Origin: Paramyrothecium sp. XJ0827
Taxonomy: Eukaryota > Ascomycota > Sordariomycetes > Hypocreales > Stachybotryaceae
DNA: 64,000 nt
Direction: 5' to 3'
Assembly (NCBI GenBank): GCA_020881915.1
Contig: JAJFPB010000004.1
Location: 4,154,001-4,218,000, forward strand
Shown here: positions 42,301-43,855 of the stretch, one piece after another
Layout of the letters: the number at the start of each line of letters is the position of its first letter
Position numbering within the stretch: the stretch's first letter is position 1
Notes under the pieces: generated by a model
What the model saw: only the letters and a program-made list of their open reading frames with translations
Told to the model about the DNA's origin: nothing
The model's database searches: none
Made by a program: the position numbers and the translations under genes

Positions 42301-43855
42301 CGCATTTGGGCGAGAACGGATTCTTTGCAACCACTTCTCAAACACCTTGGGAGCAAGCGTGGTGCTCTGAACTTCTGGAATGGGGGGTAGCGGGGGGACA
42401 GGAGGAGTGATGGATTTACCGCTTCCTTGCCTCCGTCGGATCCCGAAGCTCCTGCTTGGACTTTTGGTGACTGGTTTCTTACTTACTTCGTCCGCCTCAG
42501 ACTCGTCATCACTGTCGAAGTTGTACTAAAAGCTTCGACCGTGCACCTCTTCAGGCAAGAGGAGACCAAGAGCAGCTTGGTCCGAAGCCGACAAGTCAAG
42601 TTGCTTTGCCAAAGGGTGTTGGCAGAAATCCACCAAGGAGAGATCATGAGGGTAGGCTTTGACAGGAGGATCATCAAAGTCTCCGGCCATGAATGCCATA
42701 TCCGTTTTTGCAGCCGAAATTTCCCTGCCGGGCATCCCGCCGAGAAGAGGGCTCGGCACCGAAGGAACGGTCGAGCACCGCTTGCTTGAGGATGTCGATG
42801 TACCAGAGCTTAAAGCACTGCTCATTTTCGTGTCACAATTTGGGGTGGAGGGGCCAGATATGGATGATATGACCGTCGTGTCAGATCCTCTGGATTCTTC
42901 AAATGATGCAGATTTTCGTAGATCCGTGGATGGGGCGCGACGACGAAAGGTGAAACGCTGGCTTTCACAAGCATGCATGGCCTCAAGGCATACGTCCTCC
43001 AACTTTTTGGCTTCCTTGCAATAAAGCGTAAAAGCGTTATATGCCTGAGGGTAGCCCGGTATATTGCACCAGGAGAAAAGCTTTGTTTCCAATGTTTTCT
43101 GTTTATCGCGTGAAAACGAGTCGGTGCTTACCAGGTGCTCAAACACCGAAAGTCTGATACTGTCCCGCAGCCCAGGCGAACAAGGTGAGGGATCAACGTC
43201 ATCTGAGCCTTGAAGTGGACTGCTCGGAGGAAACATCGCGTTCAGGCACGCCATAGTTTCGATCTTGGCTTTTGTGGCGGCGCCTGCGACGCGAAACAAC
43301 CGCCTAACCAGGGCCTTCGGGGAGAGTCAGAGAGGGTCGACAGTGGGCACTAAACAGGAGACAACTCACGCATGCGCGAAATCCCATATGGCATTGTGAG
43401 AAATGAAGTGATGCTGTTTGGTGCAGTTCTTCCATGATTGGGCGGTATTTCTCCGCAACGGCATGTTTACCCAAAGTTGACTGGGCGGCAGCAAGCACTC
43501 GCCTTCTGTGAACTTCGGCTGCGTCGATGAGGGCAAGTCCCTCCATCACCTTGGAGTAGTTGAGGCCGCCCTCTTCGGGACTCTTGAAGACATTAAGCGC
43601 GGCCAGGGCCAAGTTCCTGCGCGGATTCGCAGCGTAATTGAAGGCCCGGCTTGCTTCAAGGCGGCTTCTAGAAGAGCGAAACTCGGCAGCCAGAGCCCGG
43701 TCATTGTCAAAAATGCGAAGCTTGCGCTGCGCTGCCTGGGAATAGCCGCACTCTCCAAGCTTTTTGCCCAATGTTTGGGTGTCAAGAAGGTTCGTGAGAG
43801 CAGCAAGACCACTTGTGAGCCACCACTGCTGGATCTCGGGGGCGTAAAGAGGCAT
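39394..43855 (-). CDS. large unrecognised protein interrupted by one in-frame UAG
   Basis: Exon 1 (43855-43370, 162 codons) and exon 2 (43314-39394) are joined by a clean GTGAGT...AAG intron of 55 nt. Exon 2 stays in one frame for 3.9 kb except for a single TAG (codon 425, bases 42528-42526). Decoded through, the protein is about 1468 residues; terminated, 424. The first part is helical and Ala/Leu/Arg-rich. The part after the UAG opens with an acidic stretch (YNFDSDDESEAD), then a proline stretch (PPVPPLPPIPE), a conserved-looking MEYVRLYLIEKSRA and WFWTPQWEKFLII segment, and long Ser/Thr/Pro-rich disorder with basic patches to the C-terminus. I do not recognise the family. I found no intron with good sites that removes the TAG and keeps frame. 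Two separate genes, a pseudogene mutation or a sequencing error remain possible; the hairpin around the TAG favours mRNA editing. Confidence 0.65.
42514..42539 (-). promoter_or_regulatory. hairpin with in-frame UAG in its loop (candidate A-to-I editing site)
   Basis: On the minus (mRNA) strand GUCGAAG (42539-42533) pairs perfectly with CUUCGAC (42520-42514). The 12-nt loop CUUUUAGUACAA places the adenosine of the UAG (42527) in its middle. Published fungal A-to-I sites favour U before and G after the edited A and a hairpin-loop position; this site has all three. Confidence 0.45.

Follow-up and report, generated by a model that had tools for sequence, protein, structure and literature searches.

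A candidate stop-correction site of A-to-I mRNA editing, apparently common to several families of Hypocreales, in a gene of Paramyrothecium sp. XJ0827

Gene layout and reading frame

In a 64,000-nucleotide stretch of Paramyrothecium sp. XJ0827 DNA (contig JAJFPB010000004.1, positions 4,154,001 to 4,218,000; hereafter the window, in whose numbering all coordinates are given unless a contig is named), part of a 51.8 Mb genome of 15 contigs, a minus-strand gene runs from an ATG at 43855 to a TGA at 39396-39394 and carries an in-frame UAG as codon 425, after 424 residues. The original prediction had proposed this UAG as a candidate for adenosine-to-inosine (A-to-I) stop-codon recoding, in one continuous frame broken by nothing else. 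The UAG and its codon number stood, while continuity of the frame holds only when a 55-nt intron is spliced out.

Exon 1 (codons 1-162, 43370..43855) begins with the start codon ATG 43855-43853, in a start region common to relatives (consensus MPP..A..E.WWL), and is followed by the 55-nt intron (43315..43369, GTGAGT...CTGAC...GAAG, phase 0), over whose junction the spliced protein agreed with P0002, the closest protein found (Paramyrothecium foliicola HJFPF1_12694; 81% identity over the first 401 residues and 56% over the downstream part). Exon 2 leads up to the stop (codons 163-424, 42529..43314) and ends in the residues LGLLLPEEVHGRSF. Directly behind the UAG (42526..42528, with the candidate edited A at 42527) lie the conserved codons YNFDSDDESE (42496..42525), which open a downstream frame of 1,043 codons (39397..42525; first in-frame Met at residue 96) that runs to the final stop TGA (39394..39396). 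Once the intron is removed, reading through the UAG would give 1,468 residues, which bears out the predicted choice between a 424-residue product and one of about 1468 residues, with Trp as the presumed residue at the decoded codon. The other two minus-strand frames held 77 stops in 2,084 codons, a density that gives P of about 1e-17 for an open run of 1,043 codons; therefore the run is not a product of chance.

The stop codon and its flanks among relatives

The original prediction had suggested a comparison of orthologues at this site, which was made here at the protein level. A query with the exon-2 half gave 21 matches and a query with the Fusarium poae short form gave 18, of which 12 were new, yielding 33 upstream-half relatives (P0064-P0096). 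The protein ends of all 33 were read, and the stop column was placed by counting from the conserved LGL. At the UAG column ended 29 of the 33, the last residue being F in 25, Y in two (P0077 and P0089, where an additional residue precedes it), W in one and T in one (P0082, which is without the usual motif and was placed at the column by length). The protein ending in W, P0088 of Fusarium falciforme, closes with SREW and thus has Trp where most others have Phe. Species ending at the column were Tolypocladium paradoxum, Fusarium heterosporum, F. verticillioides, F. oxysporum, F. poae, Fusarium sp. DS 682, F. zealandicum, F. falciforme, Cordyceps javanica and Ustilaginoidea virens, which from their names we take to represent Nectriaceae, Cordycipitaceae, Ophiocordycipitaceae and Clavicipitaceae. 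The four exceptions were P0081, which crosses the site with a gap, P0090, whose end is unrelated, and two models of F. decemcellulare (P0091 and P0094), which end in a different, diverged way and may have lost the site.

The downstream frame in turn matched at least 62 related proteins, four of them (P0002-P0005) over at least 95% of its length and the others over 8-40%. Directly behind the stop, several relatives kept Y-x-x-D-S-[DE]-[DEN]-E (YDPDSDDE, YEFDSENE, YTLDSEDE), so that protein is conserved on both sides of the codon, as LGLxxPKxxxSRDF before it and YxxDSDDE after it; because they are conserved as protein, both flanks are best read as exon. Relatives do stop here, but coding sequence is also conserved beyond the stop, a combination that marks stop correction and not a genuine gene end. 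Two relatives had a sense residue at the site: Trp in the contig protein P0038 (SRDV-W-YNFDSDDE) and Lys in P0018 (Purpureocillium lavendulum). Both also differ at a conserved KLFCWCDIPGY segment, which P0018 skips and behind which P0038 starts, as if the frame were interrupted a second time there, possibly at the Trp codon within CWC.

Among the 95 relatives of either half, 40 were counted as crossing the site, 35 by a two-anchor test and five by eye (P0011, P0020, P0038, P0063, P0081). In 14 of these models an exon apparently begins with the Tyr that follows the stop, so that UAG would serve as 3' splice site, while in seven an exon appears to end in F with the next Tyr codon built from UA and the following exon, which would place the start of the intron inside UA^GU. 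The remaining 19 comprise P0038, P0018 and, judged by eye, 17 models in which flanking residues are missing elsewhere. The introns drawn in these two ways are mutually exclusive; either would imply the letters UAG, and together they account for 21 of the 40 models, in which an exon boundary coincides with the codon. False introns around a premature stop are a known artefact of gene models for PUK1 (PMC4817773) and CHE1 (PMC11169179), and many deposited models of the present gene's family are probably wrong at one codon.

The same models could be taken at their word, with the UAG spliced out of some transcripts by an alternative intron, which we regard as improbable. UUUUAG could act as a 3' splice site, the 14 models above appear to use it so, and FgBUD14 provides a precedent for both editing and splicing of an intron that holds the premature stop (PMC11156358). 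The original prediction, on the other hand, had found no intron with good splice sites that removes the UAG in frame, and simple consensus scoring agreed: none of 239 frame-keeping candidate introns of 40-400 nt exceeded 4/7 splice-consensus points, against 6/7 by hand for the true first intron, and a branch-point match occurred in none of the 25 candidates listed. Moreover, the flanking residues are conserved as protein, hence exon, and the introns drawn across the site in relatives contradict each other.

Hairpin and local context of the UAG

The minus-strand letters from 42539 to 42514 read GTCGAAG-CTTTTAGTACAA-CTTCGAC, a perfect 7-bp stem around a 12-nt loop (hairpin, 42514..42539), and the UAG lies in mid-loop with U before its A and G after it, as originally described. 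Folding prediction placed the A at 42527 in a hairpin loop at 8/8 flank sizes between 15 and 100 nt, with a predicted probability of being unpaired of 0.98 in 61 nt. On both strands of the window, a perfect stem of at least 7 bp closing a loop of 4-14 nt was found at only 2 of 1,062 TAGs, the one at 42527 included. When synonymous codons were reshuffled with the protein held fixed, a stem of at least 7 bp arose in 0.32% of 20,000 trials (P 0.0032) and a hairpin with a minimum free energy at or below -16.0 in 0.68% of 4,000 trials (P 0.0068), both probabilities being post-hoc in that the stem had been noticed before it was tested. The original prediction had weighed low prior odds for such a stem against a search that was not blind, and both halves of that statement hold; a chance origin of the stem is unlikely.

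Published preferences of fungal editing include U at -1, a purine at +1 and a hairpin loop, with C at +4 depleted (PMC9600606). Around the candidate A, U at -2, U at -1, G at +1 and A at +3 agree with the published preference, and the likeness to known editing sites that the original prediction had pointed to, in sequence as well as structure, is found in the U at -1, the G at +1 and the loop.

The context also bears on programmed or leaky translational readthrough of the UAG with the RNA unchanged, which is very improbable. Readthrough would likewise preserve both the stop codon and the downstream frame, and the site tolerates a sense residue, as the Trp of P0038 and the Lys of P0018 attest. 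A CUA-type context after the stop is a readthrough motif; here, unlike in that context, the UAG is followed by UAC. Furthermore, the codon implied in the 21 crossing models is UAG, the sole stop made sense by one A-to-I change, and a loop hairpin with U at -1 is what the editing system prefers (PMC9600606).

Stop correction and the remaining alternatives

A split into two genes, the first ending at the UAG and the second with its own downstream start, is how databases record many relatives: downstream-only proteins make up 23 of the 95, the 26 given by the anchor test minus P0011, P0020 and P0038, which cross. Against this, P42, P44, P47 and P50 of the downstream frame were invariant across 16 selected sequences when aligned, and this block of residues 42-50 precedes the first in-frame Met at residue 96; moreover, the downstream starts drawn in relatives differ. 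Thus translation from upstream is the best explanation of the proline block, and because conserved residues precede any in-frame Met, a second gene is highly improbable. A pseudogene or a sequencing error in this strain, for which a single base change making UAG would suffice, is extremely improbable in view of the stop column that 29 of 33 relatives share and the long open run behind it.

The UAG at 42528-42526 is very likely, judging from sequence, a premature-stop-correction (PSC) site of fungal A-to-I mRNA editing. Its standing as a candidate for stop recoding, as originally put forward, is supported by the shared stop, the conserved downstream sequence and the context, with no acceptable frame-keeping intron. 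In vegetative cells, the mRNA would be read as written to give the 424-residue protein. In sexual tissue, the A of the UAG, presented after U in a tRNA-anticodon-like hairpin loop, would be deaminated by Tad2-Tad3 together with Ame1, a cofactor of the sexual stage, and the resulting UIG would be read as UGG (Trp) to give the 1,468-residue protein. Directly observed are the UAG with its context and hairpin, the open frame with its conserved blocks and the stop column common to relatives, whereas we infer that editing occurs, at which stage and by which enzyme, and that Trp is put in at the codon. The published machinery is Tad2-Tad3 with Ame1, a DUF726 protein, whose action on other sites has been assayed with reporters in yeast (PMC11087585). 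The genome has DUF726 matches at three loci and deaminase-domain matches, both at the domain level, which does not imply orthology to Ame1, Tad2 or Tad3. A mating-type alpha-box match lies at C9:2591643-2592074 with an HMG-box fragment 3.4 kb away (C9:2595481-2595585), and therefore a mating-type locus is probably present.

Several observations limit this reading or weigh against it: i) the UAG of the relatives is deduced from gene models and protein sequences, and the stem is known from the window DNA alone, the relatives having been compared as proteins; ii) the 17 crossing models that are gapped elsewhere near the site are not explained singly, and one of them is that of the nearest relative, P0002, whose model omits the segment, which fits a stop and does not show one; iii) the stop is not universal, given the Lys of P0018 and the different ends of P0091 and P0094; iv) hairpin loops of some kind hold 342 of the window's 1,062 TAGs, so that a loop alone is ordinary; v) U at +2 is neutral, being neither enriched nor depleted, and the C at +4 is depleted among edited sites; vi) none of the DUF726 matches is assigned as Ame1; and vii) as positive controls, no PUK1-like in-frame TAG was seen in the nine kinase matches read (of 21 that hold a TAG, among 138), nor any TAG inside three DNA-methylase matches, one gene having a gap between its two matches that was left unread.

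Because several families of Hypocreales share it, the PSC site is probably useful rather than decay. More tentatively, and at less than even chances, it may be a stage switch kept across the order, in which one gene makes two selected proteins (424 residues in vegetative and 1,468 residues in sexual cells), the UAG is held across families because both are needed, and the Phe before and Tyr after it owe their conservation in part to codons that provide the context of the edited site. The last residue supplies a pyrimidine at -2 in 27 of the 29 short forms, and the Tyr kept in 14 of the 40 crossing models supplies the A at +3.

The gene appears to be a new instance of an established phenomenon, unless published PSC tables already list the Fusarium orthologue. 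In Fusarium graminearum, PUK1 and about 70 further genes are PSC-edited (PMC4817773, PMC11156358). As described there, that group shares with the present gene an in-frame UAG that automatic annotation bypasses with false introns, a U at -1, a hairpin loop and a coding frame behind the stop; unlike it, PUK1 is a kinase, while the present family, known here from sequence alone, gave no Pfam domain in four proteins tested. AMD1 (FGRRES_10094), an MFS membrane protein of 1,386 residues (PMC5496914), likewise has a UAG early in a long frame and a false intron in its gene model, whereas the present family combines a helical N-terminus with mostly disordered sequence in the modelled part behind the site. 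CHE1 (FG3G21220), a 310-residue zinc-finger protein edited in hyphae (PMC11169179), has a conserved PSC and the same three kinds of annotation error, but that stop has been described within a set of closely related Fusarium species, while the present one spans several hypocrealean families.

Besides the lack of Pfam families, no solved-structure relative of P0064 was found, and structural matches were too weak for naming a fold. Modelled on P0064, the short form is predicted to hold a helical domain (5-282) followed by a largely disordered tail, and this tail of the 424-residue form carries the conserved segment PNPLLxGMPGREISAAKTDGAAFAGD. Behind the site, as far as P0022 extends (696 residues), its model shows mostly disorder, interrupted by a small helix-strand element where the conserved SPMEY...FLIIP segment lies. 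The interest lies in whether selection maintains the 424-residue form as a product in its own right. The gene offers a test case for restorative editing as tolerated decay versus a maintained two-product switch. PSC genes of the cited literature were found by RNA-seq in a few model species; the present candidate can be read from protein records alone.

Next to this gene, an open frame on the plus strand (45154-46407) contains GEKGAGKSS, which we take to be a Walker-type motif, and likely encodes a conserved ATPase.
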